Shown piece by piece: positions 2,850-36,585 of a stretch of DNA of 64,000 nt (positions are counted from its first letter, which is position 1; each line of letters opens with the position of its first letter). Origin of the DNA: Micromonospora sp. FIMYZ51 (GTDB taxonomy: Bacteria; Actinomycetota; Actinomycetes; Mycobacteriales; Micromonosporaceae). The DNA is taken from assembly GCF_038246755.1 (NCBI RefSeq), contig NZ_CP134706.1, positions 6,947,501 through 7,011,500 of the forward strand, given 5' to 3'. The notes beneath the pieces were generated by a model. That model saw only the letters and a program-made list of their open reading frames with translations. It ran no database searches and was not told the DNA's origin. The position numbers and the translations under genes were made by a program.

Positions 2850-3734
2850 GTGAGCAAGCGTCGAAGGAACCAGCGGTCGGCCGCGCCGAGCGGAAAGCGG
2901 GAGCGGGTACGGGACGTCTTCGTCCCCCGCCCCTTCGAGGGGCTCGCCGACGAGCCGGAGTGGATCGCCCTGCGGGAGCTGGTCCCCGCCGCCTCCGCGC
3001 CACTGCGGCTCACGCCGACGCTTGTCGAGGAGTACGGCGACCGGCCGGTCACCCTGGCCACCGTGCTGCCGATGGCCGCGCCCGCGATGAGCCGGACGGA
3101 CGGGCACGTCTTCGTCGGGCTCCAGCGACACCTCCAGTCCGGCGATGTCTCCCGGGACCTGGCCGAGTCGCTGCTCTGCGCGCTGCGGGCCGAACCGGGT
3201 GCCCCGGTCTCAGTGCCGCCGCTGCCCGGCCCCGGCCCTCGGCTCCAGGACATCCTGATCGACGGCCCGCTGGAGATCACCCTGCACGAGGGCTTCGACT
3301 TCTGGCTCGCCCCGGAGGCCGCCAACGACCCGACCGTGCAGGCGTCCCTGGAGCGGGCCAACGCGGCGATCTACCCCACCGTACGGCTGGCTGCCGCTCG
3401 CGCCGCGTACTGGTGCAAGGTGCCGGAGAAGGCACACGTCCGTTGGGTGCTGCCCGAGGCCGAGGAGCCTGCCCTGGATGCGCTGGCCCGGCTGGGCGCG
3501 GCCGGTTCGCTGAGCCTCGGCGAGGGGACCAGGTTCGCCGGCATGTTCCGGGCGCACGGACGGCTGGTGCCGGTCTGGGATCTGCCCGAGGAGGTGCCGG
3601 CGGCCGACTGGGAGGGCCCGGTGGCCGACTTCGCGAAGCGCTACGCGGACGCGCTGACCGACGCCGGTCCGCTGGACGCCGCCGCCCGGCGGTCCCGGCA
3701 GGGCCTGCTCGGCCGCCAGCTAACCCTGCGCTGA
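2850..3734 (+). CDS. DUF5926 family protein
   Basis: A 294-residue protein with a basic N terminus (SKRRRNQRSA) and a soluble, acidic-rich body (DVFVPRPFEGLADEPEW, TLATVLPMA). It matches what I recall of the actinobacterial DUF5926 family, which has no established function and is sometimes mislabelled SecA or topoisomerase-like. GTG at 2850 was chosen because translation from the earlier start at 2802 would run into the repeat region. It converges on the arginine deiminase gene, with an intergenic repeat between them. The C terminus ends in RQGLLGRQLTLR. Confidence 0.7.
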   Translation: MSKRRRNQRSAAPSGKRERVRDVFVPRPFEGLADEPEWIALRELVPAASAPLRLTPTLVEEYGDRPVTLATVLPMAAPAMSRTDGHVFVGLQRHLQSGDVSRDLAESLLCALRAEPGAPVSVPPLPGPGPRLQDILIDGPLEITLHEGFDFWLAPEAANDPTVQASLERANAAIYPTVRLAAARAAYWCKVPEKAHVRWVLPEAEEPALDALARLGAAGSLSLGEGTRFAGMFRAHGRLVPVWDLPEEVPAADWEGPVADFAKRYADALTDAGPLDAAARRSRQGLLGRQLTLR

Positions 3735-32342: not shown

Positions 32343-32445
32343 CGCACCGCAGCGCGGAGATACCGGCGACGCCACCGCGTGTCGTCGGGATCTCTCAAGC
32401 GCGTGGCGCCGAGCGCAAGCGTGGCCGGTCATGACAGGATGCGGC

Positions 32446-35400
32446 GTGCCCCCGTTCAACGTCATACCCCCCGGTGGCCGCCCGCCCTTCGTCGCGGACC
32501 TGCACATCCACTCGAAGTACTCGCGGGCCTGTAGCCGTGACCTGACCCTGCCGAACCTCGGCTGGTGGGCCAGACGCAAGGGCATCGCAGTGCTCGGCAC
32601 CGGCGACTTCACCCACCCCGCCTGGTACGACCACCTGTGCGAGACGCTGCGTCCGGCCGAGCCCGGTCTCTACCGGCTGGGTCCGGAGGCGGAGCGGGAC
32701 ATCGCCCGCCGACTACCGCCGAGGCTGGCCAGCGAGGCGGAGAGCGACCAGGTCCGGTTCATGCTCAGCGTGGAGATCTCTACGATCTACAAGCGGGACG
32801 ACCGGACGCGCAAGGTGCACCACCTGATCTATCTGCCGGATCTGGACGCGGTGGGCCGCTTCAACACCGCACTGGGTCGGATCGGCAACCTCGGCTCCGA
32901 CGGCCGGCCGATTCTCGGTCTGGATTCGCGCGACCTGCTGGAGATCACGCTTGAGGCGAGCGCCGACGGCTATCTCGTGCCGGCGCACATCTGGACCCCG
33001 TGGTTCTCCGCGCTGGGCTCGAAGTCCGGCTTCGACGCGATCGCCGACTGCTACGCCGACCTGGCCGAGCACATCTTCGCGGTGGAGACCGGGCTCTCCT
33101 CCGATCCGGAGATGAACTGGCGGGTCGGCAGCCTGGACAACTACCGGCTGGTCTCCAACTCGGACGCGCACTCACCACCCGCGCTGGCCCGTGAGGCCAC
33201 GGTCTTCGCCTCGCCCCGGGACTACTTCGGCATCCGCGAGGCGTTGCGCACCGGCGACGGGCTGGCCGGCACTGTCGAGTTCTTCCCCGAGGAGGGCAAG
33301 TACCACGCGGACGGCCACCGGCTGTGCGGGGTGAACTGGTCGCCCGAGCAGACCAGGAAGGCCGGCGGACGGTGCCCGGAATGCGGCAAGCCGCTGACGG
33401 TGGGCGTACTGAGCCGGGTCGAGGACCTGGCCGACCGGCCGGAGGGGTACCGGCCGGAACACCGGCCCGAGGTGACGCACCTGATTCAGCTCGCCGAGAT
33501 CCTCGGCGAGATCAACAAGGTCGGCCCGCGCTCGAAGAAGGTCGAGGGGAAGCTCACCGAGTTGGTCGCCGCGCTCGGCCCCGAGCTGGAGATCCTCACC
33601 CGTACGCCGCTTGACGACATCGGTCGGGTCGGTGGGGAACTGCTCGCCGAGGGCATCGGCCGGCTGCGCCGTGGCGAGGTCCGCCGGGTGCCGGGCTACG
33701 ACGGCGAGTACGGCGTGATCACCCTCTTCGACCCGGCCGAGCTGGGCGCTGCCGGTGGCTCGGCGGGACAGGAGACACTCTTCGACGTACCGGTGCCGGC
33801 ACCGCGACGGCCCACGGAGCCGGCGGCGAAACCGGAGGCCAGGGCGAAGCGGCCGGCGGCGAAGGCCGAACCGAAGCGCAAGCCGGCGGCACCGGCACCG
33901 CCGATCGCGCCGCCGCCCTCGCCACACGAGCCGTTCGAGCCGATGCTCGCCGGGATGGAGGAGGTCGGCACCGGCCTGCTCGACCGGCTGGACGCGATGC
34001 AGCGGGTGGCCGCCTCGGCACCCGGCGGCCCGCTGCTGATCGTGGCGGGACCGGGCACCGGCAAGACCCGTACGCTGACCCACCGGATCGCGTACCTCTG
34101 CGCGGAGCTGAACGTCTTTCCCGAGCGTTGCCTGGCGATCACCTTCACCCGGCGGGCCGCCGAGGAGCTGCGGCACCGGCTCGACGGCCTGCTCGGCCCG
34201 GTCGCCGAGGACGTCACGGTGGGCACCTTCCACTCGCTCGGGCTGACCATCCTGCGGGAGAACGCCGACGCCGCCGGCCTGCCGGAGAACTTCCGGATCG
34301 CCGACGACGCCGACCGGACGGCGGCGCGGGCCGAGGCCGGCGACGATCCGGCCCGCTACCTGGCGTTGCTGCGCAAGCAGGGCATGGTCGACCTGGACGA
34401 GCTGCTCACCCTGCCGGTGATGCTGCTGCGGGACGACCACAGGCTGGTGGAGCGATACCGGGATCGCTGGCAGTGGATTTTCGTCGACGAGTACCAGGAC
34501 GTGGACGCGGTGCAGTACGAGCTGCTGCGGCTGCTCAGCCCCGCCGACGGCAACCTGTGTGCGATCGGCGACCCCGACCAGGCCATCTACTCGTTCCGGG
34601 GTGCCGATGTCGGATACTTCCTGCGCTTCTCGCAGGACTTCACCGACGCCCGGCTGGTCCGGCTCAACCGGAACTACCGCTCCTCGGCGCCGATCCTGGC
34701 CGCCGCGGCACAGGCCATCGCGCCGTCGTCGCTGGTCCGGGGCCGGCGGCTGGACCCGGCCCGGCTCGACCCGGAGGCCCCGCTGGTCGGCCGGTACGCC
34801 GCAGCCTCCGTCGCCGACGAGGCCGACTTCGTGGTACGCACCGTCGACGAGTTGGTCGGCGGCCTCTCCCACCGGTCGCTCGACTCGGGCCGTATCGACG
34901 GCCGGTCGACCACGCTCTCCTTCTCGGACATCGCCGTGCTCTACCGGACCGACTCGCAGGCCGCGCCGATCGTGGACGCCCTGTCCCGGGCCAACGTGCC
35001 GGTGCAGAAGCGTTCGCACGACCGGCTGCGGGACCGCCCGGGGGTGGCCGCCATCGCCCGCGAGCTACGGCACGCCTCGGGTCTGGACGGTGCCCTGCCG
35101 GCCCGGGTACGCCTCGCCGGCCAGGTGCTCGCCGAGCGGTTCGCCGTGCCCACCCTGGACGGCTCCGGCGGGGTCCGCCCGTCCGACATCCGCACCGCGG
35201 TCGAGCTGCTGACCCCGTTGGCCCGTCGCTGCGGCGATGACCTGGAGATGTTCCTTTCCCAGCTCGCCACCGGCGCCGAGGTGGACGCACTGGACCCACG
35301 CGCCGAGGCGGTCACCCTGCTGACCCTGCACGCCGCAAAGGGCCTGGAGTTCCCGGTCGTCTTCCTGGTCGGTGCCGAGGACGGGCTGCTGCCGCTGCGC

Positions 35401-35643
35401 TGGCCCGGCAGCACGCCCGACGAGGAGGCGGTGGCCGAGGAACGGCGGTTGTTCTTCGTCGGGTTGACCCGCGCGCAGGACCGCCTCTACGTCAGCCACG
35501 CCGCCCGCCGGAGCAGGCACGGCGCGGAGCGCGACTGCCGACCGTCGCCGTTCCTCGACGTGATCGACCCGGGCCTGTTCGAGCGGATCGGCGACGGTGG
35601 CGGGACCCGGCGGCCGAAGGACCACCAGTTGCGGCTCATCTGA
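32446..35643 (+). CDS. Endonuclease Q-like PHP/zinc nuclease fused to a UvrD-type DNA helicase
   Basis: A 1,065-residue two-part protein. The N-terminal ~410 residues match the endonuclease Q family: PHP metal motifs DLHIHSKYSRA (~residue 18) and SNSDAHSP (~238), the VPAHIWTPWFS segment, and a zinc site GKYHxxxxxxxC...CPECGK (~285-315). Endonuclease Q nicks DNA 5' of deaminated bases. After a Pro/Ala/Lys linker, a superfamily 1 helicase has Walker A GPGTGKT (~535), GTFHSLGL, VDEYQDVD (~680), GDPDQAIYSFRGAD, NRNYRSS and LLTLHAAKGLEFPVV. The helicase half is slightly shorter than UvrD. GTG 32446 has AGGA upstream; ATG 32431 is possible. Joint repair function is inferred. Confidence 0.88.
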   Translation: MPPFNVIPPGGRPPFVADLHIHSKYSRACSRDLTLPNLGWWARRKGIAVLGTGDFTHPAWYDHLCETLRPAEPGLYRLGPEAERDIARRLPPRLASEAESDQVRFMLSVEISTIYKRDDRTRKVHHLIYLPDLDAVGRFNTALGRIGNLGSDGRPILGLDSRDLLEITLEASADGYLVPAHIWTPWFSALGSKSGFDAIADCYADLAEHIFAVETGLSSDPEMNWRVGSLDNYRLVSNSDAHSPPALAREATVFASPRDYFGIREALRTGDGLAGTVEFFPEEGKYHADGHRLCGVNWSPEQTRKAGGRCPECGKPLTVGVLSRVEDLADRPEGYRPEHRPEVTHLIQLAEILGEINKVGPRSKKVEGKLTELVAALGPELEILTRTPLDDIGRVGGELLAEGIGRLRRGEVRRVPGYDGEYGVITLFDPAELGAAGGSAGQETLFDVPVPAPRRPTEPAAKPEARAKRPAAKAEPKRKPAAPAPPIAPPPSPHEPFEPMLAGMEEVGTGLLDRLDAMQRVAASAPGGPLLIVAGPGTGKTRTLTHRIAYLCAELNVFPERCLAITFTRRAAEELRHRLDGLLGPVAEDVTVGTFHSLGLTILRENADAAGLPENFRIADDADRTAARAEAGDDPARYLALLRKQGMVDLDELLTLPVMLLRDDHRLVERYRDRWQWIFVDEYQDVDAVQYELLRLLSPADGNLCAIGDPDQAIYSFRGADVGYFLRFSQDFTDARLVRLNRNYRSSAPILAAAAQAIAPSSLVRGRRLDPARLDPEAPLVGRYAAASVADEADFVVRTVDELVGGLSHRSLDSGRIDGRSTTLSFSDIAVLYRTDSQAAPIVDALSRANVPVQKRSHDRLRDRPGVAAIARELRHASGLDGALPARVRLAGQVLAERFAVPTLDGSGGVRPSDIRTAVELLTPLARRCGDDLEMFLSQLATGAEVDALDPRAEAVTLLTLHAAKGLEFPVVFLVGAEDGLLPLRWPGSTPDEEAVAEERRLFFVGLTRAQDRLYVSHAARRSRHGAERDCRPSPFLDVIDPGLFERIGDGGGTRRPKDHQLRLI

Positions 35644-35748: not shown

Positions 35749-36585
35749 ATGGCGAACTACGGCTCCCCGGGCGGTGGCCCACACCCGTGGCACGATCCGC
35801 GTCCCGGTGAGGCCCACGACCCGCGCCAGAGCTACCGCCCGGAGCAGAGCTACGGACCCGAACAGGGTTACCGCCCGGAGCAGGGCTACGGCTCAGAGCA
35901 GGGCTACGGACCCGAACAGGGTTACCGCCCGGAGCAGGGCTACGGCTCAGAGCAGGGCTACGGTCGGGGCCAGGTCTACGGTGGCGGGCCGCATGGCTCC
36001 GCCGGGCCGCCGTACGGCAGCGGCCCGCCGGGGTCCGCGTACCCCGGCGGGCAGCAGGGGCCTGGCCGGCCCGGGCCGGAGTACGACGCGGCGAGCGCGT
36101 ACGCGGGCCAGCCGACGCCACCGGGGCGCAGGCGCGGACGCGGCCTGGTGCTGGCCGCGGTGGGGGCGGCCCTGGTGTTGATCCTCGCCGGTGGTACCGC
36201 GTTCTACCTGTTCGCCGGGGACGATGAGCCGCCGACGACGGTGGCCGCGCCAACCGAGGTGCCGGTGCCGACGACCGGCACCCTGGAGGAGGACGAGGAG
36301 GTTGGGCCGAGCGACCCGGCCGCCAGTTCATCGGCCGATCCCCGGTTCGTGGAACCCGGCCAGTGCGTCCGCAACGACGCGCCAGCCGGCGCCAAGCCCA
36401 GGCTGTTGATCAGCGACTGTGCCCCGAAATCGTACGAGGTACTGCGCCGCTTCGACGGCAAGACCAGCGGTGAGAAGGACGCCGAGGCGAAGTGCAGCCG
36501 GGTGGACGGTTACACGAACTGGTACTTCTACGACAGCGAGCTGGACTCGCTGGACTTCGTGCTCTGCCTCAAGCAGCGCGACTGA
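35749..36585 (+). CDS. LppU/SCO3897-like protein with Y(G/R)PEQG repeats
   Basis: The 278-residue protein begins with a disordered segment (residues ~1-120) rich in hexapeptides such as GYRPEQ, GYGSEQ and GYGPEQ. One transmembrane helix follows (GLVLAAVGAALVLILAGGTAFYLF). The extracellular ~80 residues have four Cys (GQCVRNDA, ISDCAPKS, AKCSRV, VLCLKQRD), the pattern of the LppU/SCO3897 family. ATG 35749 has a strong AGGAGGG site, which decides it over upstream starts. A strong terminator follows. Its function is unknown; localisation at the cell surface is inferred. Confidence 0.82.
   Translation: MANYGSPGGGPHPWHDPRPGEAHDPRQSYRPEQSYGPEQGYRPEQGYGSEQGYGPEQGYRPEQGYGSEQGYGRGQVYGGGPHGSAGPPYGSGPPGSAYPGGQQGPGRPGPEYDAASAYAGQPTPPGRRRGRGLVLAAVGAALVLILAGGTAFYLFAGDDEPPTTVAAPTEVPVPTTGTLEEDEEVGPSDPAASSSADPRFVEPGQCVRNDAPAGAKPRLLISDCAPKSYEVLRRFDGKTSGEKDAEAKCSRVDGYTNWYFYDSELDSLDFVLCLKQRD
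35825..35966 (+). repeat. 18-nt in-frame repeat encoding (G/S)Y(R/G)(P/S)EQ hexapeptides
   Basis: About eight 18-nt units occur in the N-terminal coding part of the LppU-like gene. A higher-order 54-nt block (GYGSEQ-GYGPEQ-GYRPEQ) is partly duplicated, indicating recent expansion by slippage or unequal exchange. Confidence 0.85.

Follow-up and report, generated by a model that had tools for sequence, protein, structure and literature searches.

Endonuclease Q (EndoQ; TIGR00375) is represented by the structures of PfuEndoQ (PDB 5zb8 and 7k30–7k33). The substitutions E76A, H84A and H139A abolish the activity of PfuEndoQ, the exclusion of T and A from the base pocket is attributed to H139, G169 and S171, and the enzyme also cleaves abasic (AP) sites and oxidised pyrimidines (passages of PMC8307549). 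The archaeal enzyme binds PCNA through a C-terminal peptide with a dissociation constant (KD) of 55 nM, and bacterial homologues of EndoQ were reported to carry beta-clamp motifs in their C-terminal regions (passages of PMC4858679). Where passages of PMC4357722, PMC4858679 and PMC8307549 deal with bacterial EndoQ, they describe it as of limited occurrence and do not mention a helicase fusion. Passages covering both EndoQ and UvrD, including those of PMC8307549, treat the two apart, and UvrD is not mentioned in the text of PMC4357722. No description of an EndoQ-helicase fusion was found in the literature searched, of which most subscription papers were out of reach, and its absence from print is not established. 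Here we analyse such a fusion gene of Micromonospora sp. FIMYZ51, whose genome is a single contig of 7.05 Mb. The gene lies in a stretch of 64,000 nucleotides (contig NZ_CP134706.1, positions 6,947,501 to 7,011,500), referred to below as the window.

Two further systems bear on the comparison. Gabija pairs a nuclease, GajA, with a UvrD-type motor, GajB. NucS (EndoMS) of Actinobacteria is a clamp-linked repair nuclease, with an unrelated nuclease fold, no helicase and mismatches as its substrate. The enzyme of C. glutamicum shows full dependence on the clamp (passages of PMC7343888).

Architecture of the fusion protein

A single uninterrupted frame of 1,065 codons plus stop encodes a nuclease of the PfuEndoQ fold, a disordered linker and a UvrD/PcrA-type SF1 helicase, in the following arrangement.

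32446..35643, plus strand: whole fusion gene, with a GTG start and an alternative in-frame ATG at 32431
32488..33753, plus strand: EndoQ-like PHP nuclease module with zinc-binding domain, residues about 13–436, PfuEndoQ fold
33754..33969, plus strand: disordered linker rich in Pro, Ala and Lys, residues 437–508, predicted local distance difference test score (pLDDT) below 50
33970..35598, plus strand: UvrD/PcrA-type SF1 helicase, residues 509–1051
35626..35640, plus strand: C-terminal QLRLI, residues 1061–1065, a predicted beta-sliding-clamp-binding peptide, with Q1061 and L1064 in 25 of 25 fusions

The EndoQ-fold nuclease with its intact active-site signature, the flexible linker, the UvrD-type motor and the clamp-like tail, as read from the sequence and the structure model, suggest that the fusion may be a single-polypeptide, clamp-tethered excision enzyme, which would nick at a lesion and then peel off the damaged strand. 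We hold this reading with moderate confidence.

The 120 homologues listed, of 7,995 scored, cover 99–100% of the query with 87–95% identity and are 1,060–1,085 residues long; the named entries are nearly all from Micromonospora. Most are annotated as 'UvrD-helicase domain-containing protein' and a few as 'TIGR00375 family'. The fusion is thus already on record in the databases under such automatic names.

The nuclease module

The nuclease half matches PfuEndoQ (5zb8) in a phmmer comparison with an E-value of 1.2e-44. A profile built from 22 EndoQ-like modules, two of them helicase-less, aligns to residues 5–382 of 5zb8 in one stretch (E-value 4e-60), and the fold is shared over 380 residues at about 30% identity. 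Conservation was read from an alignment of 25 sequences, the window fusion and 24 rows chosen from 72 fusions. The aligned positions are as follows.

32773..32775, plus strand: E110, equivalent to catalytic E76 of PfuEndoQ in the profile alignment to 5zb8, identical in 25 of 25 fusions
32818..32820, plus strand: H125, aligned with catalytic H84, identical in 25 of 25 fusions
32986..32988, plus strand: H181, equivalent to H139 (catalytic and steric gate), identical in 25 of 25 fusions
33091..33099, plus strand: G216-L217-S218, equivalent to G169 to S171, with G216 and S218 identical in 25 of 25 fusions
33163..33171, plus strand: D240-A-H242 of SNSDAHSP, in which D240 aligns with an Asp position occupied by Asn in chain 7k31
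33316..33384, plus strand: zinc-site candidate H291-x2-C294 ... C310-x2-C313, kept in 25 of 25 fusions

D54, D240 and H242 are likewise identical in all 25 fusions, and H20 is kept in 24, with Gln in one. The three residues whose replacement inactivates PfuEndoQ are therefore all found in the window protein, and the alignment to 5zb8 places the PHP metal ligands E110, H125 and H181 where an original prediction, made from the DNA letters alone, had assumed a PHP nuclease. The residues reported to exclude T and A in PfuEndoQ are also kept, as residues.

The assignment to EndoQ proper is less complete. The zinc site has three Cys and one His (H-C-C-C) against four Cys in PfuEndoQ, the first Cys being replaced by H291; a zinc site with the His ligand is plausible. 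The whole protein scores 155.6 bits with TIGR00375, an NCBIfam hypothetical equivalog with a cut-off of 326.6, and none of 101 genomes of the same family holds a match over that cut-off. Because of this score and the differing zinc ligands, we use the label EndoQ-like for the module and stop short of assigning it to EndoQ. The predicted EndoQ-like nuclease thus stood in its fold and in its catalytic and steric-gate residues, and did not stand as strict membership. EndoQ nicks 5′ of deoxyuridine (dU), deoxyinosine (dI), deoxyxanthosine (dX) and AP sites; by analogy in sequence, we infer that the window protein would nick 5′ of deaminated bases or AP sites. In the copy of Pfam used, the nuclease half has no family over cut-off; the label PF27218 is present only in precomputed homologue rows.

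The helicase

The second half scores above the Pfam gathering scores for PF00580 (217.2 bits) and PF13361 (109.8 bits), and motifs I–VI are present, which agrees with the full-motif SF1 helicase proposed at the outset; of the domain search suggested then, the UvrD-type families were recovered over cut-off and TIGR00375 stayed below it. Unlike the UvrD, PcrA and Rep helicases of SF1A, the fusion reaches none of the listed NCBIfam equivalog cut-offs, the best listed being PcrA with 374.5 against 911.2 bits. Two stretches are much shorter than in PcrA (1pjr), whose residues 124–179 and 407–530 correspond to only about 11 and 51 residues of the fusion helicase. These are fusion residues 627–637 and 882–932, which we take to be parts of PcrA subdomains 1B and 2B. 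The first of them is longer in many relatives outside Micromonosporaceae. The fusion helicases share at most 41% identity with any of three UvrD-type paralogues of the window genome.

Ahead of the helicase lies SPHEPFEPMLAGMEEVGTG (33919–33975), a stretch that is near-invariant in the Micromonosporaceae loci read and was not seen in other loci.

The C-terminal peptide

QL[SD]LF is the consensus for bacterial beta-clamp binding. The fusion protein ends in DHQLRLI, predicted to be disordered, and QLRLI satisfies a flexible-end, QL[SD]LF-like pattern as a degenerate match. The exact ending Q[LM]x[LM][FLIVMW] is found in 67 of 73 full-length fusions, and Q..L lies within the last eight residues of 72 of the 73; for the 31 from outside Micromonosporaceae, the corresponding counts are 25 and 30. 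These 73 fusions are kin, 42 of them from Micromonosporaceae, and do not represent independent events. They comprise the 80 loci kept in the survey below, less L038, L070 and L082 (frame at a contig or locus edge), L023 and L087 (shortened frames), and L074 and L083 (helicase-less). Locus L043 holds a full fusion ending in QLRLL, and other fusions end in QLELF, QLDLF, QLTLF, QLSLF or QLSLL. Of 2,126 background frames drawn from the same loci and the window, spurious frames among them, a single one, of 444 residues in L080, has the exact ending. The tails of two UvrD-type paralogues of the window genome have no such ending.

As in EndoQ, a clamp-type peptide stands at a C-terminus, in the fusion after the helicase. 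A C-terminal hydrophobic peptide is also shared with NucS, which ends in DELTLF in the window genome. From its sequence, the peptide probably ties the fusion protein to the clamp of the DNA-copying machinery.

Three beta-clamp-type loci of the window genome (L099–L101) match a DNA polymerase III beta-clamp profile, one near base 3,041 and the other two with frames of 402 and 365 codons. Such clamp paralogues could matter for the choice of clamp by the fusion protein.

The linker peptide

A second short peptide lies just past the nuclease module.

33769..33783, plus strand: linker motif QETLF, residues 442–446, a possible second clamp-type peptide

Linker residues 441–480 have an amino-acid conservation of 0.69 among 31 Micromonosporaceae sequences. 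An xLF motif is found at this place in 72 of 77 loci, and F446 in 23 of 25 aligned fusions; this linker motif sets the fusions apart from EndoQ. The set of 77 consists of the 80 loci less L043 and the helicase-less L074 and L083, with L038 included. The motif is absent in L073, L085, L086, L087 and L088, and the fusions that lack it include the Melainabacteria and Elusimicrobiota relatives of L083. Three of the four helicase-less relatives terminate in such a peptide (...APTLFE, ...PELFD and ...TPPLF); the fourth, L083, ends in ...IHNKN. QETLF is likely to be the old C-terminus of the nuclease. In a plausible history, the peptide that once closed the nuclease would have come to lie inside the linker, and a further one would have been retained or acquired where the fusion protein now ends.

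Distribution and history of the fusion

Relatives were sought with the nuclease half in one genome per species, and the best 80 of at least 587 were kept. In 77 of 79 assessable loci (L038 left out), the nuclease frame runs on into a helicase, so that the union of both modules in one frame, as originally proposed, holds well beyond the window; L086, which has a variant Walker A, was counted as fused by its visible helicase. Fused members occur in at least seven named phyla, and a survey of the frequency of the fusion, which the original prediction had called for, thus finds it widespread. Their labels include Actinomycetota, Acidobacteriota, Pseudomonadota, Myxococcota and Planctomycetota, and further Candidatus Binatota, Candidatus Melainabacteria and Elusimicrobiota.

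Of 101 genomes in the family to which the window belongs, 88 have a match, 81 of these with frames of at least 979 codons, and in the wider phylum only three of 148 sampled genomes, the window genome included. Both surveys used the TIGR00375 profile, on which the fusions score only about 109–148 bits, so distant members could be missed. The rationale that a high guanine-plus-cytosine (GC) genome would need this enzyme against heavy cytosine deamination is not supported by these data: the fusions of L086 and L088 lie in loci of 35–36% GC, few genomes of the phylum have a match, and the window genome has four UDG-superfamily loci.

Four relatives are helicase-less (L083, L074, L094 and L095). 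In an unrooted quick tree these versions stand at two places among the fusions, a pattern that points, as far as a tree without a root can, to a lost helicase and not to an original helicase-less form. The tree counts three changes, probably one too many, as L096 is labelled stand-alone there; we treat L096 as cut off because its frame leaves the fetched stretch inside the linker. PfuEndoQ is meaningless as a root because its branch amounts to 10 changes per column. Between species, identity in one half tracks identity in the other, with a correlation of 0.94 over 2,556 pairs. Joint inheritance would produce such agreement, and common ancestry by itself would push the value up too. Searches of 50,697 phage and 72,556 plasmid records gave no match to the nuclease half, and viral contigs gave four pattern matches and no relative.

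L094 and L095 lie in two genomes of one genus in the window's family. Their helicase-less version groups with that of Streptosporangium (L074) and not with the family's own fusions, and three other sampled genomes of the genus have no match. The fusion may have been lost there and then replaced by transfer.

Proposed mechanism

In the mechanism that we propose, the tail, and perhaps also the linker peptide, would tether the fusion protein to the beta clamp. The PHP module would flip the lesion, either an AP site or a deaminated base (hypoxanthine or uracil), into the PHP/zinc pocket, and a nick would be placed 5′ of it, leaving a 3′-OH. The helicase would travel 3′ to 5′ on the intact strand and lift the damaged strand from its new 5′ end, while a clamp-bound polymerase would extend the 3′-OH and other enzymes would trim the flap and seal. 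Lesion specificity, clamp binding, loading direction and hand-off are carried over from the named families. The EndoQ-like specificity of the nuclease is more secure than the coupling of nicking to peeling. A repair machine that is self-contained, as first imagined, does not agree with the protein: no gap-filling or sealing domain was found, and the tail seems built to make use of the clamp of the replication machinery.

The window genome has one TIGR00375 match, four UDG-superfamily loci and one NucS. No match to endonuclease V (EndoV) was found in it by a search that was positive in six of 14 control genomes. Hypoxanthine is therefore a likely main substrate. The missing EndoV match, the clamp-like C-terminal peptide, the linker xLF and the wide distribution had all been overlooked before.

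More broadly, the relatives may form a widespread bacterial family of one-protein enzymes that combine EndoQ-type nicking, strand peeling and beta-clamp hand-off, excising deaminated bases with neither a glycosylase nor a separate helicase and carrying two clamp-type peptides that flank the motor. This generalisation is tentative, and we rate it a little short of an even proposition. Across seven or more named phyla, an EndoQ-like module makes up one half of a fusion with a helicase, in which the clamp link has apparently been kept by a peptide at the new end. The step after an EndoQ nick thereby becomes testable with one purified protein, which could also serve as a mesophilic enzyme that nicks specifically at dI or dU and brings its own unwinding activity. 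If the proposal is true, genomes lacking EndoV may use the fusion for hypoxanthine repair, and the fusion would be a bacterial answer to what comes after an EndoQ nick.

Several observations weigh against a clamp-tethered excision enzyme for deaminated bases. The four UDG-superfamily loci already provide for uracil repair. The identity of the nuclease to PfuEndoQ is about 30%, its score is under the TIGR00375 cut-off, its first zinc ligand is His and not Cys, and QLRLI lacks the usual final Phe. Four relatives have the nuclease alone, so the helicase is dispensable there, and one of these four has no xLF end. The match in only three of 148 sampled genomes of the phylum also counts here. No repair gene was recognised among the scanned neighbours, no flanking Pfam family exceeds three of 73 proteins at 21 loci outside Micromonosporaceae, and activity data were found for no member of the fusion family.

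Alternative explanations

The nuclease might instead act mainly on AP sites or on oxidised or mismatched bases, with the helicase removing the strand as in nucleotide excision or mismatch repair. PfuEndoQ does cut AP sites and oxidised pyrimidines (passages of PMC8307549), uracil is already served by the four UDG-superfamily loci, and the zinc domain, which helps to form the base pocket, differs in one ligand. The T- and A-excluding residues, however, are identical in 25 of 25 fusions, and NucS, the clamp-linked enzyme for mismatches, has a gene of its own; we regard this explanation as unlikely, though worth keeping in view. The PHP module could also be degenerate or repurposed, merely placing the helicase at the clamp or at damaged DNA, as its score far under the TIGR00375 cut-off might suggest. 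This is improbable, as the tested ligand positions are identical in 25 of 25 fusions, H20 excepted, and the signature is kept in the natural nuclease-only versions. That the two halves are separate proteins, made through an internal start or processing, with the fusion a genetic convenience, would suit the long, disordered linker and the helicase-less versions that occur in nature. Against it, the nuclease frame continues into the helicase in nearly all assessable loci and frames of at least 979 codons are the rule in the family. Wobble variability at residues 481–520 is 0.255, equal to the mean of 0.255 (31 sequences), which indicates no extra constraint, and by eye neither the ATG at 33943 nor that at 33997 is preceded by a Shine-Dalgarno-like stretch at a normal distance. 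A scan for promoters and terminators was empty. An internal start, which had been named as grounds for abandoning the fusion, thus finds no support, and separate halves are the least probable of the explanations considered.

An anti-phage system, in which a nuclease and a UvrD-type motor act on phage DNA with uracil or modified bases on a Gabija-like plan, would account for the patchy occurrence in the phylum. The helicase half matches PADLOC GajB models (best E-value 7e-72), and a possible antiviral role of bacterial EndoQ is mentioned in passages of the review PMC8307549. The GajB matches, however, follow from general UvrD homology. GajA and GajB are two proteins with another nuclease and a defence context, which was not seen at the fusion locus: no GajA was found among the eight proteins scanned with Pfam (the fusion and seven neighbours), three of which were also scanned with PADLOC. 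Gene order is largely kept in Micromonosporaceae, 88 of 101 family genomes have a match, and the nuclease half is without a match in the phage and plasmid records. No recurrent defence gene appears among the 73 flanking proteins of the 21 other loci, where the 25 most frequent of 35 PADLOC families each match just one protein. The clamp-type tail also points to replication or repair, and we consider a defence role of the fusion to have little chance of being right.

Genome setting

The neighbours of the fusion gene encode MoaA, a MoaD-like protein, a metallophosphoesterase, an LppU/SCO3897-family protein and an AAA_16 ATPase. Across Micromonosporaceae loci their order is largely preserved, L040 and L036 being among the exceptions. 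At the loci of other groups, no such neighbour was found. At the 21 loci outside the family, flanking genes were frames picked by script, some possibly false; 83 were picked and 73 scanned. The downstream LppU/SCO3897-family protein contains, at 35836–35964, an imperfect repeat of the kind PEQGYRPEQGYGSEQGYG.

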